Shown in pieces: positions 9,162 through 33,355 of a DNA stretch of 64,000 nt. Source of the DNA: Oscillospiraceae bacterium (GTDB lineage Bacteria; Bacillota; Clostridia; Oscillospirales; Oscillospiraceae); contig WQSX01000002.1 in assembly GCA_009787625.1 (NCBI GenBank), positions 62,001 to 126,000 on the forward strand, written 5' to 3'. The notes under the pieces are model-generated. The model did no database searches, was not told the origin of the DNA, and saw only the letters and a program-made list of their open reading frames with translations. How positions within the stretch are numbered: the first letter of the stretch is position 1; every line of letters starts with the position of its first letter. The position numbers were made by a program, and so were the translations under genes.

Positions 9162-10271
9162 ATGGCGGAAGCTCTTAAAAATTTTATCAATAGAGAATAC
9201 CTGCAAAAATTAGGTACAGATATGCACGAGGTTTACGAGCCTTTTCCGATAGATGAGTTTATCAACTCAACCATGGATGAAACATGGGACGGCTTAGAGT
9301 TAAAGGAAAGAATGAGGCAGATAACTCTTAACTTAGCGAAGTTTTTGCCGCCGGACTATGTCAAGGCAATTGAAATCATTGATGAAGTTATAAAAACTCA
9401 CGGAACGTGGCTTGACGGATTTTGCCTGTATTTCCCTGACTTTGTGGAAGTTTTCGGGCAAGGCGAATCACATTGGGAGCTTTCCATGTCCGCACTTGAG
9501 CGGTATACGCCACACGCATCGGCAGAGTTTGCAGTGAGACCGTTTATTATAAATCATGAAAAGCGCATGATGGACCAAATGTATGCTTGGTCGAAAAGTG
9601 AAAACGCCCATGTGCGAAGGCTTGCAAGTGAAGGTTGTCGTCCTGCATTGCCGTGGGGAATTGCGCTCAAAGCATTCAAAAAAGATCCAACACCCATACT
9701 TCCTATTTTAGAGCAACTTAAAACAGACCCTGACATTTATGTGCGAAAAAGTGTTGCAAACAACCTAAATGATATTTCCAAAACCCACCCTGAATTAGTG
9801 GCACAGCTTGCAAAAACGTGGTTTGGGAAAAATGAACACACAGATTGGATTGTAAAGCACGGTTGCCGCACATTACTTAAAAAGGGAAACAGTGAAGTTC
9901 TCGCAATTTTTGGATTTCATGACGCAAGCTCCGTTGGAGTTGACGATTTTGCGATTAATAAGCAAAAAATAGCGATTGGCGGCGATTTTAATTTTTCATT
10001 TGCAATAACTACCAAGGAAGCAACTAAAGTCAGGCTGGAATATGCCATTGACTTTGTAAAAGCAAACGGAAAACGCAATAGGAAGATTTTTCAAATCTCC
10101 GAAATTGCGTTAAAGGCGAATGAAGCCAAACCCTACACAAAAGCTCACTCATTCGCCGAATTATCAACAAGAAAGCACTATCCGGGCACACACTCAATCA
10201 CCCTAATAGTAAACGGAACAGAGCGAGCCACACTAGATTTTGAACTTACAGTCCCTGTGCGGCGTCACTGA
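9162..10271 (+). CDS. AlkC-type alkylpurine DNA glycosylase with C-terminal Ig-like domain
   Basis: AlkC proteins excise cationic alkylated bases such as 3-methyladenine, using HEAT-like repeats without flipping the base. Residues 1-240 form the helical HEAT-like region (MAEALKNFINREYL start; HVRRLASEGCRPALPW and YVRKSVANNLNDISK look like HEAT units). Residues 265-365 are beta-rich and fit the Ig-like domain found in some AlkC proteins. I start at the ATG at 9162 (369 aa). The in-frame TTG at 9150 touches the ribosome-binding site and cannot be used. The last 26 bp overlap the convergent ROK gene. Confidence 0.85.
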   Translation: MAEALKNFINREYLQKLGTDMHEVYEPFPIDEFINSTMDETWDGLELKERMRQITLNLAKFLPPDYVKAIEIIDEVIKTHGTWLDGFCLYFPDFVEVFGQGESHWELSMSALERYTPHASAEFAVRPFIINHEKRMMDQMYAWSKSENAHVRRLASEGCRPALPWGIALKAFKKDPTPILPILEQLKTDPDIYVRKSVANNLNDISKTHPELVAQLAKTWFGKNEHTDWIVKHGCRTLLKKGNSEVLAIFGFHDASSVGVDDFAINKQKIAIGGDFNFSFAITTKEATKVRLEYAIDFVKANGKRNRKIFQISEIALKANEAKPYTKAHSFAELSTRKHYPGTHSITLIVNGTERATLDFELTVPVRRH

Positions 10272-11433
10272 AAAACTTTTCGCTTGCCTGCACGCCAATG
10301 CCTATAAGTGGCGAATAGCCATTATACATGGACTTTTCTATGGCTAACTCATATTGTAAATAGTCTCCCGCAAAGGTACTGCGGTATTTATTGCAGATAT
10401 CCTCAAACAGCGAGGGAATATCGTTTATTAGATCTCCTAAAAGAATTACCGTGTCAGGATCGTATGCCCCCACGATGTTATCAATGAGCCCGGCAAAATT
10501 ACTCACGTAATTTTCTATTATACGCTGCGCCCAGACATTTTTTCTAATCTGTGGTAAAAAAATTTCATAAACTCTGTTTATGTCCGAGAATTTTCTCGCC
10601 TCTGAAATCAAGAAAGAATTGATTAGTTTTGTTTGATAACAGCCAACTTTACCGCAACTGCACAGCATTCCCTGTGCATCATGTGTGACATGCCCGACTT
10701 CTCCGGCACTGTTGGTAATGCCTCTGAGTACAACGCCGTTCACAATGACAGCCGACCCAATACCCTCGTCCACATATAGCAGTGCAGTTATCTTAGAATC
10801 GAAGTCGCGCCTGTTATGCTCTGCATAAGCGGCGGATTTAATATCGTTGTCGATAACGCAATGTGTTTTTGTCTCTGCCCTCAGCATATCGGCAAAAGGA
10901 ACATTTTTTCCCCATGAGAGGTTTGCCGAAAAGCGGACAATTCCCTGCTCATTATCTATAATGCCGGGAAGTGCAACGCCGACACCAAAAATATTGTGTG
11001 GCTCTAAACTCTTGTGATTTGTGAGCTTTCTTATCTGAGAGGAAATAATTTTTATAAGTTCTTCGGGGGTGATGTTTGAGATTTTTAGAGTTGACACAAA
11101 TGTGGTATCTGTGTCGTTGCAATGATGTATCTGACCTTTTGCATTTATAATGGCGGCCTTTAGTGTTGTTGCATCGTACTCCATGCCAACAGTTAAAACC
11201 GCTGTTTCGTTGATATCGAGCAATTTAGTTTTTCGACCTACGCCCAAACTACCTGCGTCAACTTCTTTTATATAACCCTTTTCAATGAGGGTGCTTGCAA
11301 TTCGAGACACACTCGGAATGCTCAGCTTAGTGATTTCGTTTATTTCATTTCTGGAAATGGGATAATTATGTCTGATAGAATTTAACACTAAAAAATTGCT
11401 GTTTGAGCTCACATCATTTGCAGTTAACTTCAT
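10246..11433 (-). CDS. ROK-family transcriptional regulator
   Basis: The N-terminal winged helix-turn-helix (residues 15-65, with LSIPSVSRIASTLIEKGYI as the reader) is followed by an actin-like ROK sugar-kinase fold. That fold carries the structural zinc site CSCGKVGC (about 260), preceded by GEVGH. Such NagC/XylR-type proteins repress sugar or amino-sugar genes and respond to a sugar ligand. It starts 3 nt after the oppF stop with ribosome-binding site AGGA, so it is co-transcribed with the transporter and is its likely regulator. A sugar-sensing regulator on a peptide transporter hints at a glycopeptide or muropeptide substrate (inference). Confidence 0.9.
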   Translation of the reverse strand: MKLTANDVSSNSNFLVLNSIRHNYPISRNEINEITKLSIPSVSRIASTLIEKGYIKEVDAGSLGVGRKTKLLDINETAVLTVGMEYDATTLKAAIINAKGQIHHCNDTDTTFVSTLKISNITPEELIKIISSQIRKLTNHKSLEPHNIFGVGVALPGIIDNEQGIVRFSANLSWGKNVPFADMLRAETKTHCVIDNDIKSAAYAEHNRRDFDSKITALLYVDEGIGSAVIVNGVVLRGITNSAGEVGHVTHDAQGMLCSCGKVGCYQTKLINSFLISEARKFSDINRVYEIFLPQIRKNVWAQRIIENYVSNFAGLIDNIVGAYDPDTVILLGDLINDIPSLFEDICNKYRSTFAGDYLQYELAIEKSMYNGYSPLIGIGVQASEKFFSDAAQGL

Positions 11434-11435
11434 CT

Positions 11436-12458
11436 TTAACGGTCCTCATAAGCAATCCGCACTTCTTGCGAACTGGAAGTCGTGTGCAGATGGCATGCCA
11501 CAAAATGACCGTTGCCGATATCTTTAAGCTCAGGAGAATCACTTTTGCAGATATCCATGCACTCATGGCAACGCGTGTGAAAATTGCACCCTGAAGGTGG
11601 GTTTACCGGACTTGGAATATCGCCCTTAAGAATTATTCTTTGATGTTTTATGGTTGGGTCCGGTACCGGTACGGCCGAAAATAAAGCCTTGGTGTAAGGA
11701 TGCATGGGATTTGTATATAAGTTCGAGCTGGTAGAGATTTCCACGATTTTGCCCAAATACATGACGGCTATTCTGTCGCTGATATGCTCAACTACAGACA
11801 AATTATGGGAAATAAAGAGGTAGGTCAAACCCATTTCCTTTTGTAAATCTTGAAGCAAATTCAAAACTTGAGATTGGACGGAAACATCAAGAGCTGATAC
11901 AGGTTCATCAGCCACTATAAGCTTCGGATTTACGGAAATTGCTCTGGCTATGCCGATTCTCTGGCGTTGACCTCCGGAAAACTCGTGGGCAAATTTGCCC
12001 ATGCCCGATTTAGATAGGCCAACTAACTCCAAAAGCTCTTCAACTCGTTTATATCGTGCATTTTGATCCAGCTCCTCGTGAACAAGTAAAGGCTCAGAAA
12101 CCAAATCCCGAACTCGCATTCTGGGATTTAAAGACTGATAAGGATCTTGAAAAATCATCTGCATATGGCGACGCTTTGGCCGCATTTGACGCTCTTTTAG
12201 GTCTGTAATATTCTCACCCTCAAAAGTTACACTTCCGGATGTCGCACCAAGAAGCTTGAGCAAAAGCCTACCGGTAGTGCTTTTTCCGCAACCCGACTCA
12301 CCGACAAGGCTGAGAACCTCGCCTTTATGTATATCAAAACTAACGCCATCTACCGCCTTAACATATGCTTTGCCGGCAAACAGACCCTTTTTACTAATTT
12401 GAAAGTGTTTTTTGATATCATTCACTTCCACAAGCTTTTCTATGTGTTCACTATTCAT
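11436..12458 (-). CDS. oppF: Oligopeptide/dipeptide ABC transporter, ATP-binding protein
   Basis: This is one of two NBDs powering peptide import. It has Walker [10 protein letters not shown], signature [14 protein letters not shown] and Walker B LIVADEP. The C-terminal oligo-HPY region ([17 protein letters not shown]) carries a CxxxxxxCxxxxxxC-type cysteine cluster seen in iron-sulfur-bearing Opp ATPases. I choose the ATG at 12458 (MNSEHIEKL, 340 aa), preceded by AGGGTAA. An in-frame TTG at 12494 has no ribosome-binding site. It is the fifth gene of oppA-B-C-D-F. Confidence 0.92.
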
Positions 12459-12497
12459 ACACGTTACCCTAACTGACAAATATTTACCAATCAAATT

Positions 12498-13511
12498 CTA
12501 CACGTCTACACGGCGGCCATACTCTTCCGCCAACCAACAGCGGGATTTTCGCAATCCATTTTCACCATCAATATGAAAGATAGGTGGCATTTCTTTTTTG
12601 CATCTTTCAAAACAATCATCACAACGAGGCTCAAAGGCACAGCCGGCAGGCATGTTATCAAGAGACGGCACATTCCCCCTAATGGCAACCAGGCGCTCCT
12701 TAGGATTGCCGATAACAGGTGTGGAGTTTAGCAAGCCTTTAGTATAAGGGTGCAGCGGATTAGAAAAAAGATCTAAAACATCAGCCTCTTCCACGACTTT
12801 ACCGGCATACATTACAACAACTCGGTTGCACATTTCCGCAACTACTCCGAGGTCATGAGTAATAAGCAAAATACTCATATCAAATTCTTTGTTTATATCT
12901 CGCATCAGCTCTAATATTTGTGCCTGAATGGTTACATCCAAGGCTGTGGTCGGCTCATCTGCAATAAGCAGTGCAGGGTTTAGGCTCATACCCATCGCTA
13001 TGCCCACTCTTTGGCACATGCCGCCTGAAAGTTGGTGCGGATACTCATTGATAACCTCAGCTGCCCTTGGAATTCCCACTTTTACGAGCATAGACAGAGC
13101 TAAATCTTTAGCTTCTTTCTTAGAGAGCACTCTGTTATGTTTTAGTATCAGCTCCATCATTTGAGTGCCAATTTTCATTGTGGGGTTTAGAGAGGACATA
13201 GGTTCTTGAAAAATCATGGAAATCTCGCGTCCTCTTATGTGAGAAATCTCCTTGTTAGAATAACCTACAAGGTTTTTGTCTTTAAAAAGAATTTCGCCAT
13301 CTGTGATTTTTCCGGTGGTATTTCTAAAAAGCTGCATGATTGAAAGAGCTGTTACGCTTTTTCCACAGCCCGACTCACCAACCAAACCCAAAATTTCGCC
13401 TTTGCCGATATGCCAAGAAACATGGTCTACAGCCGTAACTGTTTTATCTTTAGTTATAAACTGAGTCTTTAAATTCTTAAGCTCAAGCACTTTTTCATTT
13501 TCAACACTCAT
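12498..13511 (-). CDS. oppD: Oligopeptide/dipeptide ABC transporter, ATP-binding protein
   Basis: This is the partner NBD of OppF. Walker A is GESGCGKSV, the signature LSGGMCQRVGIAMG and Walker B LLIADEP. The C-terminal oligo-HPY domain also has clustered cysteines. The start is the ATG at 13511 (MSVENEKV, 337 aa), 12 nt after GAAAGGA. Upstream in-frame ATG codons lie on or next to the ribosome-binding site. The leader is the recurring GAAAGGAATGGTCATT sequence of this genome. Confidence 0.93.
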   Translation of the reverse strand: MSVENEKVLELKNLKTQFITKDKTVTAVDHVSWHIGKGEILGLVGESGCGKSVTALSIMQLFRNTTGKITDGEILFKDKNLVGYSNKEISHIRGREISMIFQEPMSSLNPTMKIGTQMMELILKHNRVLSKKEAKDLALSMLVKVGIPRAAEVINEYPHQLSGGMCQRVGIAMGMSLNPALLIADEPTTALDVTIQAQILELMRDINKEFDMSILLITHDLGVVAEMCNRVVVMYAGKVVEEADVLDLFSNPLHPYTKGLLNSTPVIGNPKERLVAIRGNVPSLDNMPAGCAFEPRCDDCFERCKKEMPPIFHIDGENGLRKSRCWLAEEYGRRVDV

Positions 13512-13538
13512 ACGAATGACCATTCCTTTCAATCTGCA

Positions 13539-14393
13539 TCATTTGTTGTATTTAGGGTCAAGAGCATCTCGCAAGCCATCACCTAAAACATTAAATGCCA
13601 AGACCGCCAAAAGGATTACCAAACCGGGAAATAAGACGGCATGAGGGGCAACACCCAAATAATTGCGGCCCACGCTGAGCATAGCGCCCCACTCTTCTTC
13701 CCCGGGAGGTGCTCCCAAGCCGAGAAAACTAAGTGAAGATGCTGCTAAAATTGCTGTGCCGATGCGCATGGTATAATTAACTACCATTGTAGAGAGAGCA
13801 CCGGGAAAAATATGGATAAAGATAATACGAAAACTTGACACCCCGATAGAGCGGGCGGCCTCCACATAAAGACTTTCTTTCAAGGCAAGCATAGCTCCGC
13901 GCATAATTCGGGCAAAAGTGGGAATACCAAAAATAGCCACAGCAATTATTACGTTTTGCAGACCCGGTCCCAAAATAGCCACAATCGCAATGGCTAAAAT
14001 GATATCAGGAAAAACAAACATAATATCACAAATTCGCATAAACAAATTATCAAATGCACCGCCAATATAACCGCTGATTAAACCTAAAGCTGAGCCAATC
14101 ACCATAGCGAAAGTAACCGCTGTCATCGAAACCGAAAGGGTTAAGCGGGTTCCCACGAAGAGACGGGAGAAGATATCTCTGCCAAACTCATCTGTGCCGA
14201 ACCAATTGTCACCACTCGGACCTGCCAATATATTCCCATAATCAAAAGCCCTTGGATCGTGGGGCGAAACCTCTCGTCCAAAAATAACAACAAAAATAAG
14301 GAATATGATATATAAAAAAGCTAAGACTGCGACTTTATTTCTGACAAATCTTTTTAAAAATATACCCGTTGGGCTTTCTTTGAATGTACTCAT
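13539..14393 (-). CDS. oppC: Oligopeptide/dipeptide ABC transporter permease (OppC/DppC type)
   Basis: The inner-membrane permease is 284 aa with about six membrane segments. The N-terminal OppC-type segment precedes FGTDEFGRDIFSRL, the family's hallmark. The EAA loop (EAARSIGVSSFRIIFIHIFPG) contacts the ATPase. It lies 10 nt from oppB and 27 nt from oppD in the same operon. Confidence 0.93.
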   Translation of the reverse strand: MSTFKESPTGIFLKRFVRNKVAVLAFLYIIFLIFVVIFGREVSPHDPRAFDYGNILAGPSGDNWFGTDEFGRDIFSRLFVGTRLTLSVSMTAVTFAMVIGSALGLISGYIGGAFDNLFMRICDIMFVFPDIILAIAIVAILGPGLQNVIIAVAIFGIPTFARIMRGAMLALKESLYVEAARSIGVSSFRIIFIHIFPGALSTMVVNYTMRIGTAILAASSLSFLGLGAPPGEEEWGAMLSVGRNYLGVAPHAVLFPGLVILLAVLAFNVLGDGLRDALDPKYNK

Positions 14394-14403
14394 ACTCCAC
14401 TTC

Positions 14404-15321
14404 CTATAGTCTAATTTTTGGATTTAAAAATCCATAAGCTACATCTACCGCTAAGTTGACAAATATGAATAGGGCGGCAAAAATCATTAATTGAGATTGG
14501 ATAACGGTATAATCTCTAAAGAATATAGAGTCCACCAATAAACCGCCTAAACCTGCAATGCCAAAGACCCTTTCAACAATTACCGAGCCTCCGAGCAGAA
14601 AGCCGAATTGCAGACCTACTATGGTAATAATTTGCACCATTGAATTTCTAAGACCATGCTTAGTTACAACTTCAAATTCGTTTAGACCTTTTGCTCTTGC
14701 CATTCTTATATAGTCATTGCCCATAACATCTACCATTTCTGAGCGGGAGATCCGAGCAAGCATGGCCATAATTCCTGCTCCCAAAGTTATAGAAGGCAAC
14801 ACCAAATCGACCATGCTGTTAAAGCCTGCCACAGAAAAGACGGGACTGCCTATGGCAATATAATTGATAAGCATCAGCCCAAGCCAAAACGAAGGAATGG
14901 AGATGCCGGACACGGCAATCAGCATACCTATATAATCCGGCCATTTGCCTCTGAAAATAGCCGAAAACAACCCTATAGTCAGACCTATTACCAAGGCCCA
15001 GATCATAGAAGTAAACGCCAAAAATAAAGTCGGTTCAAATCTTGGTTGCATCATCTCTATAACAGGTCGCCCTGTACGGAGTGAAGTGCCAAAATCACCT
15101 GTGACAAAACCGCCAAGCCATCGGAAGTATTGAACATATATGGGATAGTTAAACCCGAGCATTTCCCTTATGCCTTCAACCTCCTCGATTGTGGCATCAA
15201 CACTAGCCATCATCCGAGCCGGGTCACCGGGAATCATGCGAATGAACAAAAAGACCACAATTGATGCAGCAAGCAACAGAGGTATCATCTGCAATAAGCG
15301 CTTAATAAAATACTTTAGCAT
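14404..15321 (-). CDS. oppB: Oligopeptide/dipeptide ABC transporter permease (OppB/DppB type)
   Basis: The 305-aa membrane protein has the OppB N-terminus (FIKRLLQMIPLLLAASIVVF), the MIPGDPAR segment and the EAA-like loop RMARAKGLNEFEVVTKHGLRN. It is the first permease after the binding-protein gene. A stem-loop in the 114-nt oppA-oppB gap may lower expression of the membrane genes relative to the binding protein. Confidence 0.93.
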   Translation of the reverse strand: MLKYFIKRLLQMIPLLLAASIVVFLFIRMIPGDPARMMASVDATIEEVEGIREMLGFNYPIYVQYFRWLGGFVTGDFGTSLRTGRPVIEMMQPRFEPTLFLAFTSMIWALVIGLTIGLFSAIFRGKWPDYIGMLIAVSGISIPSFWLGLMLINYIAIGSPVFSVAGFNSMVDLVLPSITLGAGIMAMLARISRSEMVDVMGNDYIRMARAKGLNEFEVVTKHGLRNSMVQIITIVGLQFGFLLGGSVIVERVFGIAGLGGLLVDSIFFRDYTVIQSQLMIFAALFIFVNLAVDVAYGFLNPKIRL

Positions 15322-22307: not shown

Positions 22308-22322
22308 AAGGGAGATGTTTCA

Positions 22323-25300
22323 GTGGCAATCATTAACAATAGATACAGAATTGTCGAAGAGCTGGAACGCTTTGACCCCAGTTCGCTATGCCTTATTACA
22401 GATATGGCTGAGAGGGGAAAGGAAAAAGCTGCCTATCTGTTTGATGAAGGACTGACCGCAGGTGAGCTTGATGAGTTCTACAGCGGTGACTTTGCGGTTT
22501 ATAAAAGGCTTACCCACACTCACATTTTAAAAAGTTACGAGATTGAAAAAATAAAAAATATCGGCGGAAAACGCAGTGGTATTCCCCAATACATGCTACT
22601 TTCAGAACATGTAGACGGCTTCACAACACTCTTAAACTCTATAGGGAAAATCCCGAGAAAAAGCGTGTTAGATCTATTTATAAGTGCATGTCAGGCTGTG
22701 CACTACCTACATGTGAAGAACGTAATGCACGGCAGCTTAAACTCCCTGAGTGTAATTATCACAGGCAAAAAAAGAAAAGTCTTGCACCTGCGAGATATTG
22801 CATCAACAAAGCTACTCCGTCACATACCGGGAGACTCCGGATACAACACAGCATACTTTCAGGCACCTGAAGCAAGGCTTGAAAGTGCCGGCAATGTTCA
22901 AACAGATATATACTCGTTAGGAGTTGTGCTTTTCTGCCTGGTTGCAGATAAAGGTGACATAAGCTCTGACTTCAAGGTAGATTTGGCAAAATTCAAAGGC
23001 TCGGACGAGTTTATAGAAAAAGCAATGTTCATAATAGAAAAAGCGACAGCCGGGGTGGGGACGCGATACAGCAGTATTCTACAAATGGTTGATGACATAA
23101 ACGACCTGTTTAAGACAGACTATAAAGCATTTAGGGTCGCGGAGCTGGAGCATCTTGTTTTAGAAACAAAACTTGTCGGGCGAAAGTCGGAACTTGAAAC
23201 TTTGGTTGAATGCACAAGCAATGTAACCGCTCAACTTTCGCTGAAACGACACGCCTGTATCAGTGCGGAGCAAGGTATGGGCAAAACGTCACTGCTCAGA
23301 CGTCTGCGAAACAAGCTCCGCCTGCAAGACAGCACAGTATTTTGGTCTTTTGACAACAATGGCAGCAATGCAATTCAAGGATTACTCAAACAACTGATTG
23401 AAGAGGGCAACTCACGTCATAACGACGACATGATAAAGTACATAGTATCAGTTATTAACGGTAGGGCAGTTGATGCCAGAACAGGTCATGGCGGCACATC
23501 TATAGTAAAGTTCATATATGATTGCATAAAAGACAGAGCGGTAGTAATAATCCTTGATAATTTAGACGATGCCGACATATTTACGCTCGACTTGGTTGAT
23601 AAACTTGAAACAGTGTGCAGAAAGCTAAGCATTGTTTTTTCATTCCGCCGTAAACACACAAACAAGCGGTTGACGGTCTTTATGGACAGACTTTCAGGTA
23701 GTGACTCGCTGACTCAAGTCAGGCTCGAAACACTCACAAGGGGAGAAACCGCAGAATTAATCAAAAATGTTTTTTTTATCAGAGAACTGTCGGACGAATT
23801 TACAGATGCGGTCTTTAACAGCACGGGAGGAAACCCGTTTTTAATTGTGGAGACACTAAAGAGTTTTAAGGCAAACCGTATTATCTATGTGGATGAAAAT
23901 GACGGAAAATGGCAAACAAGTCTTGAAATATACGACTATGATAAAATACCAATGCCGACGAGACTTGAGCAAGCGGCACGCCAACAAGCGAAAAAACTAA
24001 GCAGAACAGACTATAAAATGCTTGAGGTGATATCCCTTTTTGAAAACCTGCAACCCACGAAAAAGCGGCTCAACGCAGTATTATTAGTTGACGCAAAAAA
24101 ACTTAGTTCGCGCCTAAGTGCGTTGGTAAAAGACGGAATACTCTATGCAGCCGAGGAAGCAAAGACATTCTCAATTGTCAATAAATCATTTGGAGAATTC
24201 CTTTCAAGCAGTATCGAACCGATTTTGGCAAGAGAACTGCACTTACGTATTGCAAATGCACTCCTTGCCGAGGAAGTTCATTCAGCCGATGTATTGAGTG
24301 AAATTATTTACCACTTGGAGATACTCGGAGAGGACAAAAAACTCCCCATATGTTATGAAAACCTCGCCGACAAAAATGCAGAGGCGGGATTTTTCGGAAA
24401 TGCCATACCTTTCTATAATAAGGCTTTAGAAATTTATAGAAAAACAGGAAACAAGCACAGAGAGATAGATATACGCCTTAAATTAGGCGATGCATTAATG
24501 CTTGATACAAAGGCACTTCAAGCACTTGAATGTATGGAATGGGTAGTGCGGAAAACAAGAGATTTTGGGCTTGTAGAAAAACATGTCAGAGCTCTTATCA
24601 AAAAATGTGAGTGTTACGGAACACTGTTCATGGAAGACAAAAACTCTCGACTGGTCAATGCACGAATTGACGCCAAGTTTGAGGACAAAGGTTTCCGCGA
24701 AGCAAGCATGGAATTGTATATGGACTATCTCATGGCGAGACTATCAGGCACAACAAGCAATGCAAGCACCGAAGAGTTCCGCGTCGAAGCAGAGTATGCA
24801 CTGTCTGTATGCCTTGAGGGTAGATCTGATATAAAGGCGATAGCCCTACGCCGCCTATCTCTTCACTATTTGTTTACAGGAGATTTTAAAAAAGCGATTG
24901 AACTTGCGCGTCAAAGTGTTGATGTGGCAAATTCCACTGACAATGAAAAAATTCAGATTGAGTGCCTGCAAGGTCTGGCACTGCTGTATGTCAATACCCG
25001 TAACGGAGAGCTTGCAAACTCAATATATGAAGAGCTACTGAGCAGAAACCAGGATCCCAAGTCACTATACGGTATCCTGCTGGGGAAAATAGGAAATGAC
25101 TATGCATACCACTATGAGCTTGGGCGGGCCATTGAAAATATCGGACCGCTAAAAGATGTAGCGGCGCTGGTAGGAGTAAACCCATATACCCAATCGATTG
25201 CCTTGTTTGCAAAGCTGTTTCTCGATGCAGATTTGTATACACAGGCAGAGGACTTAATTCTCTCATGTGCATCTTTTGTAGAGGACGATAACGAACGAAG

Positions 25301-27518
25301 AGCAACCACAAACTTTCTAACAACGAACCATATGTGCTGGTATTACATGTTTATAGGCAACTTACAAATGGCGGAAACCACTTTAGAGCGAGTGCGTAAG
25401 TTTAAGCAAGGAAGCATGCTTTTTCAGCAGATGTATAATGAACTTGCAAGTTTTTTAAGCGTTCTGCTTGAAGTTCAAAGCGAAAATCCGGACAATAAAG
25501 ATATTTCTGCACATATAAAAGCAGCCGCAGAGACAATGCTCTTTAAAGATGCGTTTGGACCGATGGACATCAGCGATGTGTTTTATTTTCTAATCTGGGT
25601 TTGTAGACACGGATATTTTGAACAAGCAGTCCCGACACTGAAATTACTTTTAGCACAAGCAGAAAAAGTTCAGTATATTTCACCATACTTGGAAATAAAA
25701 CTGCTGTACATAAGGAGCTTACTTCAAAACGAAAGCGAGAAGAGATTATCGCTAAACAAAGCATATAAACTTGCTGTCAGTAAAAAACAATACCTGCTTC
25801 AAGCACTCATCTGCAGAGACCTGAGTAAACTTGAGCAACACACAAACACCTATCTGGCACTTGATTATGCTGTACGCGCATGTGAAGCGGCACAAAATAT
25901 ACTCAAAAACAGCCCGAAAAACTCCCGTGAAATGATGGCTAAACACTACAACCTGTTTGAACTTTTTGAGGGCTTTATTTTGCTCTCAAACGATGCATCA
26001 ATGGACGAACTGATTGACAAAATGACTGCAGAAGGAGTGTTTTCCGAGATGTCCGCCGATGAAGGCTTCCGAGCGGGTACCCGCCGGAGGTTCTTTGCAG
26101 AGTTGCCGGTTAAGATTGAAACACAAAAGGATTTACTGCGAAACCTCAGCGACAATGCCAAAGAAAACCTGCATCTGTTTGCAGAGTATTTCTCTGCGGT
26201 TACGTGTGCGACCAAATGCTTTATTGTTGTGGATGATACTTACCATGAGTTTAGAGCTATAGCCTCCAAGGACGGCAACTTGAATATGCAGGGTGGGGAA
26301 CACATACTAAAACACGCAAAAATTCTCTCACATGACATACTAATCACCGGCGAGTATAGTGCAGCCGCAGCTTCAAAAAACATGTTGCCGGAAAGCGTAA
26401 AAGCGGCATTATGTTTGCCGATGCAAATAACCGGGGGCGTAAAAGGGTATATCTATGCATGTTCCGACAGCGTATTTCACAACATAAACAGTAAGTCGCT
26501 TGAAGAGTGCAAAGAGCTAATAAACCCTCTCGTTATGAATATATCAATGTATCTAAATCACGCCAAGTCACTGCTCGACAAACTCACGGAAGTTCTGAAC
26601 CGAACCCATCTGGATCTGGCAATTGAGTCAAGTGTCAAGCGGGCGACAAATACAGGCACGCCCCTATCCGTTATAATGTTAGACGTAGACAAATTCAAAG
26701 AAGTAAATGATCTTTTCGGGCATTCGACAGGTGACACGGTACTTCGGGGAATCGGAAGAGTTCTTCGCGACAATGTAAGAAGAGACAACACATCAATCGG
26801 CCGATACGGCGGAGAGGAATTTATGGTTGTCTGTGATGGCGCAGATATAAAAGATGCCGAGTTAGTGGCTGAGAGAGTCAGGCAGGAGATTGAAAAGGCA
26901 GCTCTTTTGGGAACTAAGCGCAGTGTCACGGCAAGCCTTGGTGTTGCAACATTTGCCCATGGAGAGGACACGGTGGAGAGCCTAATAAGTAAAGCTGACA
27001 ATGCACTCTACTTCAGTAAAGCAAACGGACGAAACAAAACCACTGTATATAGTAGCGCACTCGACATAGGGGAAAAACAGACATCTCCAAATAAAGGTAT
27101 AATTTCGGGAGATATAATCAAAGATGCGATGCGTATGCGTATGACACTTGAAGTGCTCGACATTACAAAAAGCACCATGACGGAGGCAGAGAAACAAACG
27201 GTAATACTCGATAAAATCAAGCAAATCGCCGAAGCTGACGAGGCAATGTACATTTCAATGAACACAGCGCCACCGAGTTTTGCAAAAGGCAACGGCACAA
27301 AAGCGAGCCTGATAAGCTCCGCAGTAGCCAAAAAAAAGCCAACAATTCTAACAGAAGAGCAAGAAAACGGCATGAGCATGGCAGCGATACCACAAACTCA
27401 AGCAGGCGAAGTGTCAGGAATACTATTTCTAAGCACACTCGCAAAAAAACGCAAGTTCAAAGCAGACGACATAGGCCTGTTGACAGATTTGGGTTATTTA
27501 GCGTATAGCCTAACGTAG
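22323..27518 (+). CDS. Giant signalling protein: pseudokinase-AAA-TPR-GAF-GGDEF-GAF
   Basis: The GTG start at 22323 follows GGGAG and gives 1731 aa. Residues 5-265 resemble a Ser/Thr kinase, but the glycine loop and Lys are absent, HRD is HGS and DFG is RDI, while APE and DIYSLGVVLF remain; it is a pseudokinase. An AAA_16-type ATPase follows, with LVGRKSELETL, Walker A AEQGMGKTS (about 317) and Walker B VVIILDNLDDAD. Helical TPR-like repeats cover about 620-1180, and a GAF-like domain about 1270-1410. GGDEF has RYGGEEF near 1494-1500 and a broken I-site (Asp replaced by Thr), and a C-terminal GAF-like region ends the protein. The layout suggests a diguanylate cyclase governed by an ATPase/TPR sensor. 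The stop TAG comes from a family C repeat. Confidence 0.85.
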   Translation: MAIINNRYRIVEELERFDPSSLCLITDMAERGKEKAAYLFDEGLTAGELDEFYSGDFAVYKRLTHTHILKSYEIEKIKNIGGKRSGIPQYMLLSEHVDGFTTLLNSIGKIPRKSVLDLFISACQAVHYLHVKNVMHGSLNSLSVIITGKKRKVLHLRDIASTKLLRHIPGDSGYNTAYFQAPEARLESAGNVQTDIYSLGVVLFCLVADKGDISSDFKVDLAKFKGSDEFIEKAMFIIEKATAGVGTRYSSILQMVDDINDLFKTDYKAFRVAELEHLVLETKLVGRKSELETLVECTSNVTAQLSLKRHACISAEQGMGKTSLLRRLRNKLRLQDSTVFWSFDNNGSNAIQGLLKQLIEEGNSRHNDDMIKYIVSVINGRAVDARTGHGGTSIVKFIYDCIKDRAVVIILDNLDDADIFTLDLVDKLETVCRKLSIVFSFRRKHTNKRLTVFMDRLSGSDSLTQVRLETLTRGETAELIKNVFFIRELSDEFTDAVFNSTGGNPFLIVETLKSFKANRIIYVDENDGKWQTSLEIYDYDKIPMPTRLEQAARQQAKKLSRTDYKMLEVISLFENLQPTKKRLNAVLLVDAKKLSSRLSALVKDGILYAAEEAKTFSIVNKSFGEFLSSSIEPILARELHLRIANALLAEEVHSADVLSEIIYHLEILGEDKKLPICYENLADKNAEAGFFGNAIPFYNKALEIYRKTGNKHREIDIRLKLGDALMLDTKALQALECMEWVVRKTRDFGLVEKHVRALIKKCECYGTLFMEDKNSRLVNARIDAKFEDKGFREASMELYMDYLMARLSGTTSNASTEEFRVEAEYALSVCLEGRSDIKAIALRRLSLHYLFTGDFKKAIELARQSVDVANSTDNEKIQIECLQGLALLYVNTRNGELANSIYEELLSRNQDPKSLYGILLGKIGNDYAYHYELGRAIENIGPLKDVAALVGVNPYTQSIALFAKLFLDADLYTQAEDLILSCASFVEDDNERRATTNFLTTNHMCWYYMFIGNLQMAETTLERVRKFKQGSMLFQQMYNELASFLSVLLEVQSENPDNKDISAHIKAAAETMLFKDAFGPMDISDVFYFLIWVCRHGYFEQAVPTLKLLLAQAEKVQYISPYLEIKLLYIRSLLQNESEKRLSLNKAYKLAVSKKQYLLQALICRDLSKLEQHTNTYLALDYAVRACEAAQNILKNSPKNSREMMAKHYNLFELFEGFILLSNDASMDELIDKMTAEGVFSEMSADEGFRAGTRRRFFAELPVKIETQKDLLRNLSDNAKENLHLFAEYFSAVTCATKCFIVVDDTYHEFRAIASKDGNLNMQGGEHILKHAKILSHDILITGEYSAAAASKNMLPESVKAALCLPMQITGGVKGYIYACSDSVFHNINSKSLEECKELINPLVMNISMYLNHAKSLLDKLTEVLNRTHLDLAIESSVKRATNTGTPLSVIMLDVDKFKEVNDLFGHSTGDTVLRGIGRVLRDNVRRDNTSIGRYGGEEFMVVCDGADIKDAELVAERVRQEIEKAALLGTKRSVTASLGVATFAHGEDTVESLISKADNALYFSKANGRNKTTVYSSALDIGEKQTSPNKGIISGDIIKDAMRMRMTLEVLDITKSTMTEAEKQTVILDKIKQIAEADEAMYISMNTAPPSFAKGNGTKASLISSAVAKKKPTILTEEQENGMSMAAIPQTQAGEVSGILFLSTLAKKRKFKADDIGLLTDLGYLAYSLT

Positions 27519-27575: not shown

Positions 27576-29036
27576 ATGCAAAAATACATCAAAGCGGTTC
27601 TCTTGCTCCTGCTTGCGGCGACACCTATCGTCTTAATTCTCATGTTATTTTCAAGCGAAGTCCTTACGCCCGACATGCCCGACGACCCAAATTATGCAAT
27701 AGAGGACACAGAAAGCCAAGAAATAAACTTCGGTGATACAGAAGTCGAGACAGCCGGAGATGCAGAGTATATACCGCAAGTGACAATACTACGGCTGGGC
27801 GGCATGTGGATACCTTTTTATATGATTCTTGAAATAGAACAGTTTAACCGCGACAACCGGGGTGAATACCGAATCGAAGTGACTGAACTGTTCGGCTGGC
27901 AAAATGTTGCGCTCGGAGGCAGCGCAGAGCATGTTGATGTTGAACAAAGAATACGACAAGAGGGCTTTGATATAGTCTATTTAAACGTTTTTGAACCGAG
28001 AAGTTTTGCGGAAGGCTCATTTTCATGGACAGACTTATACGCCCGAATCGACTCAGACCCTGAGCTAAACCGCACGGACTTTTTCCAAAGCGTACTAGCG
28101 GCAAATGAGGCTCCCGATGGAACTCTGCCCATAGTGGCGACTAACTTTTGGATTGATACAATGATAGCTCAGCGTGAAAATGCAGAGCTAATAACACCAC
28201 TCACTTTTGAAAACCTACTCAGACAGCTTAGAGAGCCACCATATCCGGAGCTGCTTCCATCATGGAACGATTGGCTACTGACAAGTGCTGCACTTGATGG
28301 TTTTGGAAATAACTTTTTTGACATGGATAATGGGTGGGTAAACTTTCAAAACGATGATTTTGTAAAGCTTTTAGAGCTTATGAACTATATTCCGAGATTC
28401 CCATTCGAGGAAGTGGAAGATGGATATTTGTCGGAGGTGCTCCAAACATTTCGAGAGAATGATATGGAGAACTTTCTGAATGGTGACATGCTGATGTATC
28501 CGTTTAATATGGGTAGTCCTGTGGATTTTCAAATACATCGTGCAGTTTTCGGAGATATTGTCGCAGTGGGCCACCCATTTGTAGCGGGTGGCAGGCACAT
28601 TATAAGGCAACACACAGGTGTGGGCATAAATGCGCAGTCTCAACACCAAGATGCCGCATGGAACTTTGTGAGGCAAACTCTCTTGCCGTCACACAGAGTG
28701 ACATTTCACATTCCTATGCGGATTGATTTGTTTGAAGAGCATATAAACGGGCTTATGAGAGAACTAGTCCGCGACGGCGTCGAGCTAGCCAGAACGGTGG
28801 AGTGGTGGAGTGCAGGCTACTCACAAGATGTATACATCTACTCGATGACAGAGGACGAGGCGCAAATCGTAAGAGAGATAATAGAAAGCGCAGTTCCAAT
28901 GCATATCGCCGACGTAAGATGGGAAATCTATGACATTATATGGGAAGAACTGAACGTCTTTTTGGAAACGGAGCAAACAGCAGAAGAAACCGCCGCCATA
29001 ATCCAAGCCAGAGTTGAAGAATTCTTAGGAAGTTAG
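27576..29036 (+). CDS. Membrane-anchored solute-binding-like protein, paralogue 1
   Basis: The 486-aa protein starts with a Lys-rich end and one hydrophobic segment (about residues 5-27). There is no lipobox cysteine, so it looks membrane-anchored rather than lipidated. The remainder resembles family 1 extracellular solute-binding proteins (VTILRLGGMWIPFYMILEIEQFN; VAVGHPFVAGGRHIIRQHTGVGINA; QDAAWNFVRQTLL). It is paralogous to the protein at 31778. No ABC permease or ATPase is nearby, so it may sense or capture a ligand rather than feed an importer (inference). Ribosome-binding site GGAGG. Its last 4 bp overlap the convergent MMPL gene. Confidence 0.8.
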   Translation: MQKYIKAVLLLLLAATPIVLILMLFSSEVLTPDMPDDPNYAIEDTESQEINFGDTEVETAGDAEYIPQVTILRLGGMWIPFYMILEIEQFNRDNRGEYRIEVTELFGWQNVALGGSAEHVDVEQRIRQEGFDIVYLNVFEPRSFAEGSFSWTDLYARIDSDPELNRTDFFQSVLAANEAPDGTLPIVATNFWIDTMIAQRENAELITPLTFENLLRQLREPPYPELLPSWNDWLLTSAALDGFGNNFFDMDNGWVNFQNDDFVKLLELMNYIPRFPFEEVEDGYLSEVLQTFRENDMENFLNGDMLMYPFNMGSPVDFQIHRAVFGDIVAVGHPFVAGGRHIIRQHTGVGINAQSQHQDAAWNFVRQTLLPSHRVTFHIPMRIDLFEEHINGLMRELVRDGVELARTVEWWSAGYSQDVYIYSMTEDEAQIVREIIESAVPMHIADVRWEIYDIIWEELNVFLETEQTAEETAAIIQARVEEFLGS

Positions 29037-31015
29037 GGCTTGCTTAAAACCCGCACCGATTTAGGCGTAACAAACCTGTCGAACGCTGAGACTATGCTTG
29101 GTAAAATAAAGATTACAAGAGCCATGGCGATAAAGCACCCGCGGGCGACAAGTAATAGAATCTCTGAAATAGCGTAGTTGATCTGTGAAAATACGATTCC
29201 CAAGACAAGGGTAATTGTTCCCGAAATGAGTCCCGAAGTCAAAATAGTATGAATTGAACCGCTGAGTGCAACGGAAATAGATTCCTTGACCGAGGCGGTT
29301 TTTCGTGCCTCTCTATAGTGCGAGGTATACAAAATCGCGTAGTCAATAGTCGCCCCTTTGAGCAGGCACTGCACAATCAAAAGTGCAAGATACATAATGC
29401 TCGAACCTTGGAAATAAAGTGATGCCATAGTTATAAATATTGAACACTGTATAACACTCACTAAAATGAACGGAACGGTCAGCGACCGAAAAGCAATCGC
29501 CGCAGTGCCAAAAACAGCAAGTGCAGTCAAAATAGTTATCAGCAAAAGCTCCTGCGGAAAGATATTGTGCATCTCGTAGGAAATTGCAAGGTCACCAACA
29601 ATAAAAAACTCACCGCTAAGTGTCGACTCCATATCACGGGTAATGTCGCCGATAAAAGCAAATGCGAGGTCAGATTCGCCCGGAAGTGAAGTCCGCAAAG
29701 TCATTCGGGAAAAATTCTCCCCGACAAAAGCCTCACGTACAGCATCATGAGCGGGGTGCATAGACATAAACATAGCCATGGTTGTATAGTATGATTCGAT
29801 GCGGTCAACGCTTGGATGCTCGCCCCACGTTGCCACAAGTGACGAAATTCGCTCCTCATCGCTGTTTTCATAGACAATAACAACAGGGCTACCTGGGTCA
29901 AATGTCTGAAACACCTCGTCATACGACTCCTGCGAGTATGTGATGAGAATATCATCTCGCACCAAGAAACTCACGGAAAACAGCACCACAAAAATTCCAA
30001 CAATCACAAACCTCGCCTTATAAGCAAAGGAGCCAAGCCGAGCCATTTTAAAGTGCGGAGCGGGTTTTTTTGTCTTTTCGATAGCCGTATCGAGCATTAA
30101 TATAAGCGCAGGTGTCGCCGTGAAAATGCAAATCAAGCTGATAAGCACGCCTTTTGCAAGGACAAGTCCAAGGTCAAGCCCAAGCGTGAACGACATGAAA
30201 ACAAGCATAAGCATTGCAACAATAGTAGTTATTGAACAACTGGAAATTGTGAGAAACGACTTTTTCAAAGCCGCAGTCATAGCAGAAAACTTATCTTCAG
30301 ACACCGCCTTTTCCTGTCTGAATCGGTTAATGAGCATAATCGAATAATCCATGCACAAGACAACTTGCAAAATCGCCGCAATGGAGACGGTTATATCCGA
30401 AACGCTTTCAAAAATTACATTGGTTCCCATGTTCAAAACAATGGCAACCAAAATACTCAGACAAAAGACAATAGGCTCAACCCAAGACTTGCTCATAACA
30501 AATAAAACCACAAGCATGATAATTGCCGCAGGGATAATGAGTGTCAGCATATCCACAGGCATAGAAACAGGACTACTCAGCACCATCTCATAGCCACTGA
30601 ATAAAGTTTCGATTTCCCTCATCAAAACGCTTGCTTCATGAGAAAAAGGGTCAACGTCAATAGTGACGATATACAGAGCTTGATCGCCACGGTTATATCG
30701 CTCATTTTCAGGCTCAAACTCAACCAGTGCAACATGCTGCATCGTACTGAGGTTTTCATAAGCTAAAACTCTTTCGGAATCACTCAAACCACCGACCATG
30801 ACATGGAGCAGACCCGAGGGCGGAAATTCATCATGCAAAATATCCATACCCCGCCGTACAGGTGAGTCCGACGGCAGGTACTGCGACATATCATAGTTAA
30901 TATTGACCTGAGTGGATAACCACCCGCTAACGGCAGTCAAAATTATAAAAAGGATTAAAATGAACCACCTAAAGCGCACAATACGCTCCGCTACTGTAGA
31001 TAAGATATTTTTCAT
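29033..31015 (-). CDS. MMPL/RND family exporter
   Basis: The 660-aa membrane protein has the two-fold RND layout: TM1, a roughly 130-residue external loop, five TM segments, then the same again. TQVNINYDMSQYLPSDSPVRRGMDIL is the typical first-loop start, and the second half has AIDYAILYTSHYREARK-type sequence. MMPL proteins export lipids or hydrophobic compounds using proton force. I use the ATG at 31015, which follows GGGGAGCG; the ATG at 31036 lies upstream of that site. It is divergent from the tetR gene, its likely repressor. Confidence 0.9.
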   Translation of the reverse strand: MKNILSTVAERIVRFRWFILILFIILTAVSGWLSTQVNINYDMSQYLPSDSPVRRGMDILHDEFPPSGLLHVMVGGLSDSERVLAYENLSTMQHVALVEFEPENERYNRGDQALYIVTIDVDPFSHEASVLMREIETLFSGYEMVLSSPVSMPVDMLTLIIPAAIIMLVVLFVMSKSWVEPIVFCLSILVAIVLNMGTNVIFESVSDITVSIAAILQVVLCMDYSIMLINRFRQEKAVSEDKFSAMTAALKKSFLTISSCSITTIVAMLMLVFMSFTLGLDLGLVLAKGVLISLICIFTATPALILMLDTAIEKTKKPAPHFKMARLGSFAYKARFVIVGIFVVLFSVSFLVRDDILITYSQESYDEVFQTFDPGSPVVIVYENSDEERISSLVATWGEHPSVDRIESYYTTMAMFMSMHPAHDAVREAFVGENFSRMTLRTSLPGESDLAFAFIGDITRDMESTLSGEFFIVGDLAISYEMHNIFPQELLLITILTALAVFGTAAIAFRSLTVPFILVSVIQCSIFITMASLYFQGSSIMYLALLIVQCLLKGATIDYAILYTSHYREARKTASVKESISVALSGSIHTILTSGLISGTITLVLGIVFSQINYAISEILLLVARGCFIAMALVIFILPSIVSAFDRFVTPKSVRVLSKP

Positions 31016-31061
31016 TGAATATCGCTCCCCGACCATGCTCTGAATTTTCGATTATACAATC

Positions 31062-31095
31062 AAAAGTTGACTTTTCGACCGACTGCCAGTATAGT
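31062..31095 (+). promoter_or_regulatory. tetR promoter with palindromic operator candidate
   Basis: -35 TTGACT (31067-31072) and -10 TATAGT (31090-31095) have a 17-nt spacer. The palindrome AAAAGT-TG-ACTTTT (31062-31075) covers the -35 box. On the minus strand a TATAAT-like -10 for the MMPL gene lies 5-10 bp further left, so one bound regulator could control both directions. Confidence 0.6.
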
Positions 31096-31208
31096 ATACA
31101 TGTGACGGTAAAACAACAAACTGTTGCGCTAAAAATGGCGGTAACTCAACACACATGACAATGTCTGTTGACTTTATGACACAAGTTGATGATTTGGGGG
31201 TAAACAAA

Positions 31209-31778
31209 ATGCAAGACAATCAGCGAATACGCATAACAAAAAAACTGTTGCAAGACAGCCTTATCTCATTATTACAGCAAGAGCGGCTCCACAAATTGTC
31301 GATAAAACAAATATGCGACAGAGCACAAATAAACCGCTCAACATTTTATAAATACTACGGAAGCCAGTATGACCTACTTGAAGAGATGGAAAATGATATA
31401 CTAAACAGAATAAACAGCTACCTTGAGCCGGGTACAGACCGCAGTGCAAGCTACGACCCGCAGAGACTCACAAAAGCGATAGAATTCATAAATGAAAACA
31501 TAGACCTGTGCAGACTGCTGCTCAACAACAATGTAGACCCGAAATTCCCTGAAAAACTTGTAATGTCTCTACAGAGCATAACCCACCTGACGGAAAATCA
31601 GTTCTCGGATGAGCTCACCAATGCAGAACGCGCCTATACTTTCGACTTTGCAATAGGCGGTGGTTTCAGCTTCATAAAAACATGGATAAACAAAGAAAAC
31701 CGCGAACCACCTGAAGAAGTAGCGAAGCTACTGAGCAGAATAGTGTTCAACCTAATGCAACCACACGGAGGCGATTAA
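31209..31778 (+). CDS. TetR family transcriptional regulator
   Basis: The start is the ATG at 31209 (MQDNQRIRITKKLL), preceded by GGGGGT; upstream in-frame ATGs lack ribosome-binding sites. The N-terminal HTH is LSIKQICDRAQINRSTFYKYYGSQYDLL, a textbook TetR recognition region, and the C-terminal ligand domain resembles the TetR_C_33 kind. The 189-aa protein is co-transcribed with the binding-protein-like gene (stop and start share one base, TAATG) and is divergent from the MMPL exporter. It therefore probably represses both. Confidence 0.92.
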   Translation: MQDNQRIRITKKLLQDSLISLLQQERLHKLSIKQICDRAQINRSTFYKYYGSQYDLLEEMENDILNRINSYLEPGTDRSASYDPQRLTKAIEFINENIDLCRLLLNNNVDPKFPEKLVMSLQSITHLTENQFSDELTNAERAYTFDFAIGGGFSFIKTWINKENREPPEEVAKLLSRIVFNLMQPHGGD

Positions 31779-33355
31779 TGAAAAAATACATAAAAGCGGG
31801 ACTTTTATTGCTCCTCGCAGCGACACCTGCTGTTTTAATCTTCATGCTTTTTTCAGGAGAGGAAGCTCAGCTCGAAAATGATTTCGATGATAATGCTTAT
31901 GTAATAGAGGACACAGGTGATTATGCCGAAATCAGTTACGGCGATACAAATCTCGAAGCAGAACCCATAAACACCCCGCAGGTGACGACCCTACGATTGG
32001 GTGGCATGTTCATTCCTTTAAACATAACCTCCGAGGTTCACCACTTTAACATGACCAACGAACGTTATTATATTGAAATAGTGGAAACGTTTAACTTGAC
32101 ATGGACAACCGAAAGTGTAATCATAATGGAAACACATACAGGGGAAACGATAGTATTCTCCATTGCGGAAGCTGAAACGGATTATGATGAGAGTTGGCAA
32201 GAAGAGCTATGGAGAGCAATACAGGAAAACTCCAAAGCACTACTTTATGAAGGAGATTTCGACATTATCGTCACAAACTCGGACTTTTTGTTAGATTTTG
32301 GGGATAGCTCTCTATCATTGGTGGACTTGTACACGTTAATCGACGCAGACCCTGAGCTAAACCGCACGGGCTTCTTCCAAAATGTTCTCAGGGCAGGTGA
32401 AGCACCCGATGGAACGCTAACTTTCATGTCATCCGGCTTTACAATACAAACAATGATTTCGATGCGCGAAACCGCAGAGCAAATAGCACCGCTCACTTTT
32501 GAAAACCTATATACAGCTCTTCAGGAGCAAAGCACATTGCAACTCACCTCGCCGGAGACAGGGTGGTCAAATATGTTGAGCTTTATTTTATGGAATGGCG
32601 AAAATAATTTTGTAGACATGGAAAGAGGAACAGCAAATTTTAATAACGAGCATTTTATCACAGCTCTGGAGCTCTTGCGCCAAATACCTGAGCGTCCGGG
32701 GGCAATGTTTGATTGGGCTGAAGCGACCCAGGAGGAAATACAGGCTTATATTTACGAAATGGAGAGATTAAGTGAGCTTGAAGTGGAGCGTTTTAAGAGT
32801 GGAGAGATACTGCTTTTCCCGTTCATAATGACCGACCCTATGCAGTTTCACGTGCTGTTGACTGCTCTTGAAGAGGTTGTCGCAGTCGGAATTCCATCCA
32901 CAGAAGGTGGCAATCATGTTATTTTTGCAAGTGAGCAAGTTGGTATAAACGCAGATTCGCCGCATCAAGACGGTGCATGGAGCTTTATACGTCAAATGCT
33001 GATGAGAACTCCCGCAAATTCGATGTCGATTTGTATAGATAGGTTTGAAGATCATATGGAGCGGCTTATGAGGCCAATTCTTCAGGGGGGTGTTGAGCAA
33101 CCGCGCTCACGGCAATGGACAGGGCCCAGTGGCATGATTCTGCCTGAGCCGGTAAATGTCTTCGCCATGACAGAGGTTGAGGCAGAGAGAGTACGGGAAA
33201 TAGTAGAAAACGCCACAGTAAGCGCACCTATGCGCACAGAGTTTGCGATAATTATAATGGAAGAAGTAACGACGTTTATGCAAGAAAACCGCACAGCTGA
33301 AGAAACAGCAATGGCAATACAACTCAGGGTACAAGAATTCCTGAATAACAGGTAG
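31778..33355 (+). CDS. Membrane-anchored solute-binding-like protein, paralogue 2
   Basis: The 525-aa paralogue of the protein at 27576 shares the N-terminal anchor (KKYIKAGLLLLLAATPAVLI), the acidic linker, TTLRLGGMFIPL and the C-terminal VAVGIPSTEGGNHVIF/QDGAWSFIRQML segments. It has about 30 extra residues near 115-145 (an ETHTGETIVF region). No lipobox is present. The start overlaps the tetR stop by one base, so translation is coupled. It ends just before a family A hairpin. Ligand and function unknown. Confidence 0.8.
   Translation: MKKYIKAGLLLLLAATPAVLIFMLFSGEEAQLENDFDDNAYVIEDTGDYAEISYGDTNLEAEPINTPQVTTLRLGGMFIPLNITSEVHHFNMTNERYYIEIVETFNLTWTTESVIIMETHTGETIVFSIAEAETDYDESWQEELWRAIQENSKALLYEGDFDIIVTNSDFLLDFGDSSLSLVDLYTLIDADPELNRTGFFQNVLRAGEAPDGTLTFMSSGFTIQTMISMRETAEQIAPLTFENLYTALQEQSTLQLTSPETGWSNMLSFILWNGENNFVDMERGTANFNNEHFITALELLRQIPERPGAMFDWAEATQEEIQAYIYEMERLSELEVERFKSGEILLFPFIMTDPMQFHVLLTALEEVVAVGIPSTEGGNHVIFASEQVGINADSPHQDGAWSFIRQMLMRTPANSMSICIDRFEDHMERLMRPILQGGVEQPRSRQWTGPSGMILPEPVNVFAMTEVEAERVREIVENATVSAPMRTEFAIIIMEEVTTFMQENRTAEETAMAIQLRVQEFLNNR

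Follow-up and report, generated by a model that had tools for sequence, protein, structure and literature searches.

The window analysed here, a 64,000-nucleotide stretch of an Oscillospiraceae genome, encodes a 1731-residue protein ("the giant") that joins a protein kinase fold, a STAND-type ATPase, a TPR arm and a GAF-GGDEF-GAF module, and that belongs to a family across which the kinase catalytic residues have been lost as a set and the Walker A lysine and GGDEF signature are conserved. We propose, with a probability of roughly 0.5, that the giant is a diguanylate cyclase of the cytoplasm that integrates signals, has a STAND ATPase at its core and is controlled by an inducer-driven ADP/ATP assembly switch. 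To an architecture that was already known, this analysis adds the loss of kinase catalysis throughout the family, the STAND placement, a partner gene and the breakup of the protein within its own genus.

Domain map and family of the giant

An earlier note, made from the sequence alone, had read a single polypeptide with the order kinase, AAA_16, TPR, GAF, GGDEF and a further GAF-like region; the open frame (5196 bp, uninterrupted), Pfam and family profiles bear this order out (Table 1). Pfam GAF gives no match in the window giant; two of the 15 members scanned, L106 and L221, exceed its cut-off. Both GAF-like assignments agree with the structure model, the fold-search rows of the C-terminal module being filled by GGDEF.

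Table 1. Features of the giant, its neighbours and its reduced relatives (positions are those of the window unless a locus is named)
Feature	Residues	Positions	Strand	Evidence
Likely ribosome site of the giant, AAGGGAG		22308..22314	+	sequence
Pseudokinase-STAND-TPR-GAF-GGDEF-GAF giant	1731 aa	22323..27518, stop codon included	+	open frame, Pfam, family profiles
Pseudokinase head	1-270	22323..23132	+	
STAND-type ATPase core	281-640	23163..24242	+	AAA_16 46.1 bits
Walker A, within the ATPase core	315-322			Lys321 invariant, 19 rows
GNP motif, within the ATPase core	503-505			Gly503 invariant, 19 rows
TPR arm	642-1270	24246..26132	+	TPR_12 (Pfam), family profile
GAF-like domain 1	1281-1410	26163..26552	+	family profile, itself including the window giant, 121 bits; structure model
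GGDEF domain	1413-1579	26559..27059	+	RYGGEEF at 1494-1500
GAF-like domain 2	1591-1730	27093..27512	+	family profile, itself including the window giant, 109 bits; structure model
GAF-GGDEF-GAF protein, 15 bp upstream of giant	491 aa	20832..22307	+	Pfam GGDEF 143.3 bits
Solute-binding-like protein, 58 bp downstream of giant	486 aa	27576..29036	+	SBP_bac_1 27.7 vs 26 bits
STAND-TPR-only relative		L117:3770-5338	+	
STAND-TPR-only relative		L118:4133-5671	-	

A one-off fusion was ruled out, as the layout recurs in 22 homologous proteins (the window giant included), 19 of them 1731–1842 aa long and 17 from the window's class, with named members in Acetoanaerobium noterae and Tissierella sp. P1. An ATPase-TPR query matched 36 of 391 same-class genomes, 21 of these with the match in an ORF of 1576–1980 aa; 20 of the 21 large-ORF loci were fetched together with further places, and A. 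noterae and Tissierella sp. P1 were retrieved by name. An ATPase-domain tree of 42 rows separates the 22 rows of the family from the others by a branch with 100/100 support, recovered in 100% of 200 bootstrap trees. All six domains stand in order in 20 of the 22 rows by family profiles, which match by construction the 19 members they were built from (L221, L222 and L223 are outside the profiles); the exceptions are L103, with no GAF1 or GGDEF match, and L223, with no head match, and the head of L222 is cut by its contig. A C-terminal GGDEF end is the rule within the clade (21/22 rows), and Pfam Pkinase exceeds its cut-off in 9 of 15 scanned members. Two further members (L119 and L120) are both cut at contig ends.

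At E 0.001, a C-terminal domain profile found matches in 45 of the 371 genomes searched in the class; in 23 of these, the window's own among them, the score exceeded 100 bits. The strong matches outside the window's own genome lay in ORFs of 1757–1844 aa or in shorter ones (101–1259 aa, several at contig ends), among which further stand-alone modules are possible. A head-plus-ATPase profile matched 394 of 398 phylum genomes, the listed matches being mostly kinase-only, and this search added family members in G838, G879 and G489. Among 394 genomes of the order, with at most two candidates scored per genome, no full-length relative appeared besides the window's own (the next-best match, at 31.7 bits, covers the kinase part only), and none was present among the matches listed for 59 other genomes. 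Scanning contigs with the single giant yielded 12 pattern matches and no relative; with the alignment, the best 80 matches were mostly ordinary GGDEFs, and L121 and the more distant L145 alone extend upstream of residue 1290.

Several members depart from the common form. In the 1573-aa member without GGDEF (L103:3353-8074, + strand) the first and second GAF-like parts directly adjoin, and a 2001-aa member (L221:6338-12343, + strand) carries ~190 extra residues N-terminal to the head. Genome G577 holds two giants in tandem (L113:3739-9159 and 9303-14669, - strand) that are ~37% identical over the first ~1020 aligned residues and 95–100% identical over the remainder, with 1493 of 1497 nt shared in the C-module; the heads diverge and the output half has been homogenised, through gene conversion or perhaps as an artefact of assembly. 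The A. noterae "plasmid" that carries a family member (NZ_CP154629.1, L095) is 2.63 Mb long with 4 annotated features in PLSDB, and may be a misfiled chromosome.

A kinase fold without its catalytic set

The earlier note had called the head a pseudokinase with a kinase fold in residues 5–265, and both parts of that call stand: a profile search places protein kinase (PF00069) in the head above the curated cut-off, and the model of the head folds confidently as a kinase, with WNK kinases as the best structural matches. At the VAIK Lys, HRD Asp and DFG Asp columns, whose placement is uncertain in heads so diverged, the window giant has Tyr, Ser and Asp and so lacks the full set of an active Ser/Thr kinase. 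This loss is shared, since the three residues occur together in none of the 21 family rows that can be read at these columns (L222 has no sequence at that point), compared to 11 of 20 related scaffolds across the 100/100 branch, where some of the other nine rows lack the N-lobe in the aligned piece. Single residues are left over in the family, namely the VAIK Lys in 3/20 rows, the HRD Asp in 2/20 (L109 and L112, both without the other two) and the DFG Asp in 8/21, each counted over the rows that have a residue at that column. Catalytic residues are missing outside the clade too (L145, L227, L228, L231 and L235), so loss of the catalytic set is recurrent in the kinase-AAA_16 scaffold; kinase domains with disrupted catalytic residues also recur in other bacterial multi-domain systems, according to the available portion of PMC7159879.

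Mean pairwise identity among 18 members is about equal in the head (24.1%) and in the ATPase (25.4%), which argues for a non-catalytic job kept by the head. The simplest reading of the alignment would be one loss of catalysis at the base of the family with that job retained, and we give even odds, as part of the whole best explanation only, to the head being a retained binding module and not an enzyme. The fold kept around the pocket, along with the leftover VAIK Lys and DFG Asp through which some ligand contacts may remain, would also suit a degenerate pocket that serves as the main sensor, binding a nucleotide or metabolite and gating the ATPase, with the TPR arm merely a scaffold. We regard this as rather unlikely, because the retained pocket residues vary between members and five full or near full-length members (L096, L097, L101, L107 and L223) give no Pkinase match above the cut-off, which together make use of the head's surface likelier than one shared ligand. 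An atypical active enzyme, one whose lysine has moved as it has in WNK kinases or one that catalyses a different transfer reaction, is suggested by the WNK matches; however, that fold match is uninformative on a moved lysine, no family row combines the three catalytic residues and the rows with an HRD-column Asp are devoid of the other two, leaving such an enzyme very improbable.

The ATPase, the cyclase and the gene next door

The STAND layout of the core is evident from an AAA_16 match at 46.1 bits (cut-off 32.6), Walker A and a GNP motif, followed by TPR_12. A winged helix was assigned from conserved motifs and the secondary structure of the model, with no fold match behind the reading, and the structure-search rows were filled by kinase and by GGDEF, so that the STAND and GAF folds were barely probed there. 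The Walker A lysine is invariant in 19 family rows. Walker B has an N following its Asp, and in L105 and L106 a G replaces the S/T after the Walker A lysine (GKG). Neither ATPase nor cyclase is therefore strictly kept, given these two members and L103 without GGDEF; together with the same-genus fragments described below, these members speak against a strict need for any single part. According to the available text of PMC4381067, binding of an inducer to the sensor, often of TPR type, converts STAND proteins from closed monomers carrying ADP into open multimers carrying ATP, and the earlier note's idea of an ATP-clocked switch fits, by analogy, the STAND mechanism described there for MalT.

At the output end, the GGDEF domain of the giant scores 137.1 bits (cut-off 23.8), carries RYGGEEF, LDVDKFKEVND and GHSTGD and looks catalytically intact. 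RYGGEE is found in 18 of 19 members examined; of these 18, the RxxD feedback site (I-site), which many but not all GGDEF proteins carry, is retained in 14 and missing from the window giant, L107, L109 and L112. At that site the window giant has RRDN plus a one-residue insertion, and so no intact feedback site, and in the 491-aa neighbour S replaces the R; in another GGDEF enzyme, I-site loss gave 30-fold more product (PMC6456294, from the part available). The window's genome contains eight GGDEF matches and no EAL match above the cut-off (one falls below, at 26.7 vs 31.3 bits), and its candidate c-di-GMP targets are two PilZ matches that exceed the cut-off together with a single c-di-GMP-I riboswitch match (76.9 bits). 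A 736-aa ORF, chemoreceptor-like when read by eye, lies 168 bp beyond the end of this riboswitch match (L249:690-774, + strand; G000:C2:227189-227273).

GGDEF domains work as dimers. In the mechanism that we propose, an inducer (protein or small molecule) would engage the TPR arm, the pseudokinase head or both, its binding would open the STAND core so that ADP is exchanged for ATP, and the ATP form would self-assemble. Because GGDEF domains need pairing to make c-di-GMP, an assembly that joins at least two C-terminal GAF-GGDEF-GAF modules would turn on synthesis, and the co-encoded 491-aa protein would probably join or tune the same assembly. Inducer binding, ATP-driven assembly, cyclase activity and partner contact are accordingly predicted steps, built on the domains, residues and gene order described above. 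A bolder form of this proposal, which we advance only tentatively, is that kinase catalysis was lost once and a signal-binding head now loads an ATP-driven STAND assembly, an apoptosome-like wheel making a second messenger, in which heads would vary while the cyclase half stays identical (as in the L113 tandem) and, in the window's species, giant and stand-alone cyclase would both work with a broken site for product inhibition. Should the switch operate in this way, the assembly of the protein, driven by ATP, would govern c-di-GMP synthesis in these bacteria, and clustered cyclases could amplify a single signal.

The 491-aa gene is a probable operon partner of the giant. Against family profiles that were not built from it, its protein scores 25 (GAF1), 215 (GGDEF) and 94 bits (GAF2), and BLAST gives 230 bits to the C-module of L096 vs 190 bits to the neighbouring giant. 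A C-module tree pairs it with the giant at 80/74 (75% of bootstrap trees), both branches being long and the tree program warning of this join. The shared module, the same-strand genes 15 bp apart, this weak pairing and the GGDEF-less L103 could also be explained if the 491-aa protein were the working enzyme and the giant a regulator that recruits it through the shared GAF-GGDEF-GAF. Such a heteromeric cyclase seems unlikely, and slightly more so than the pocket sensor, since both GGDEFs of the pair appear catalytically intact, the low pairing support comes from long branches and no similar partner was seen beside the other 18 family loci, some of which have little upstream DNA. GGDEF ORFs do occur 2–4 kb upstream of the giants at L107, L109 and L112 (582–590 aa) and at L104 (L104:12850-13488), and these resemble the 491-aa protein in the GGDEF stretch only.

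Across 19 loci, some with little flank, no neighbour genes are conserved throughout the family; sharing is confined to close relatives and to a similar 294–299-aa upstream ORF in L095 and L121. Downstream in the window, the 486-aa solute-binding-like gene is possibly co-transcribed with the giant and has at most a putative link to the switch. At 27576-33355 an MMPL transporter and a TetR-like ORF lie between two solute-binding-like ORFs that resemble each other. The SBP, MMPL and TetR order is kept in the same-genus genome G005, at protein identities of 37%, 70% and 83%; there, the place that the cyclase pair occupies in the window, upstream of the SBP, is taken by other genes. Two further genomes of the genus (G008 and G009) encode a 512–522-aa STAND-TPR protein without head or cyclase, and within the family these fragments group with the window giant as its sister (support 93/95, recovered in 94% of bootstrap trees). 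The family thus seems old in the genus and seems to come apart there, and the whole machine appears dispensable in G008 and G009, where the STAND-TPR piece alone is found.

Recent horizontal arrival or contamination is unsupported by GC3 (giant 0.424, 491-aa gene 0.437, vs 0.441–0.481 for six neighbours and other window genes), by the shared downstream genes and by the sister fragments in the genus. The contamination estimate of the assembly is 5.53%, and what weighs on the other side is the lack of a full-length relative in the 394 order genomes, at no more than two scored candidates per genome, and among the matches listed for the 59 other genomes. The same genome also encodes a 1078-aa kinase-NB-ARC-TPR protein (L116:12155-15391, + strand, G000 contig C42) with matches to Pkinase (59.1 bits), NB-ARC (27 bits) and TPR_12 (119 bits).

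The reduced forms within the genus, together with the high divergence of the window giant (14–22% identity to other family members in every domain but GGDEF), raise the question of whether the head, possibly along with the switch, is a mere relic, which would leave an ordinary diguanylate cyclase with decaying domains. We find this doubtful, more so than the heteromeric cyclase, as the long frame is still open, the head still passes the Pfam cut-off and folds confidently, and head, ATPase and arm stand together in 20/22 rows.

Comparison with known systems

Krupa and Srinivasan (2005; PMC1262709, available in part) listed an 1826-aa "STYK" of C. thermocellum ATCC 27405 with six TPRs and a GGDEF. 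Counted from its conserved start Met, L098 is exactly 1826 aa long, which makes prior publication of the architecture very probable. The window giant aligns with L098 end to end at 21% identity, in the same clade and with the six domains in order, and it shares with this type of protein the kinase fold, the TPRs, the C-terminal GGDEF, a length of ~1.8 thousand residues and homology throughout. The available text of PMC1262709 treats the protein as a kinase and names neither the ATPase nor the loss of catalytic residues; unlike the window giant, L098 retains RxxD and is not accompanied by a gene of the 491-aa type in the DNA examined. Among open-licence papers, PMC1262709 is the one description of the architecture that was found, and the portions of these papers at hand contain no pseudokinase label or STAND placement for a kinase-TPR-GGDEF protein. 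The earlier note had overlooked this 2005 description, the GGDEF end as a rule of the clade and the GAF-GGDEF-GAF gene next door. By this comparison, one of the proteins that the 2005 survey counted with the largest kinases of bacteria would be a pseudokinase, and the 22 homologues, some of them reduced or rearranged, form a set for probing the role of a bacterial pseudokinase.

MalT and PknK, as described in the available part of PMC4381067, likewise have an AAA+ core with a winged helix, a TPR-type sensor and effectors at either end. MalT ends in a DNA-binding effector, whereas the window giant ends in a GGDEF. PknK, compared by description only, is named there as a Ser/Thr kinase within the STAND group; in contrast to a competent kinase on a STAND core, the giant is missing the catalytic set, its kinase is dead and its output is a GGDEF.

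Kinase-AAA_16-GAF scaffolds with other outputs resemble the giant in their N-terminal order and homologous ATPase, but lie across the 100/100 branch and keep the catalytic set in just over half of their rows. The earlier note's expectation that such relatives usually end in histidine kinases or phosphatases was borne out only in part: among the 14 of 20 relatives outside the family whose C-termini were examined, six end in a histidine kinase (L224, L225, L227, L229, L233 and L236), six in a GGDEF (L108, L111, L114, L145, L232 and L234), one in a LuxR HTH (L228), one in PAS only and none in a phosphatase. Lastly, the GAF-GGDEF and phytochrome-GGDEF cyclases DcsBis (4zmu, which we take to carry a GAF) and 5llw place a regulatory domain before the GGDEF, as the C-module does. 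Both rank near the top of the Foldseek search with the C-module, with domain orientations that do not superpose (rmsd 14–21), and both are without the kinase, STAND or TPR part that precedes the cyclase in the giant.
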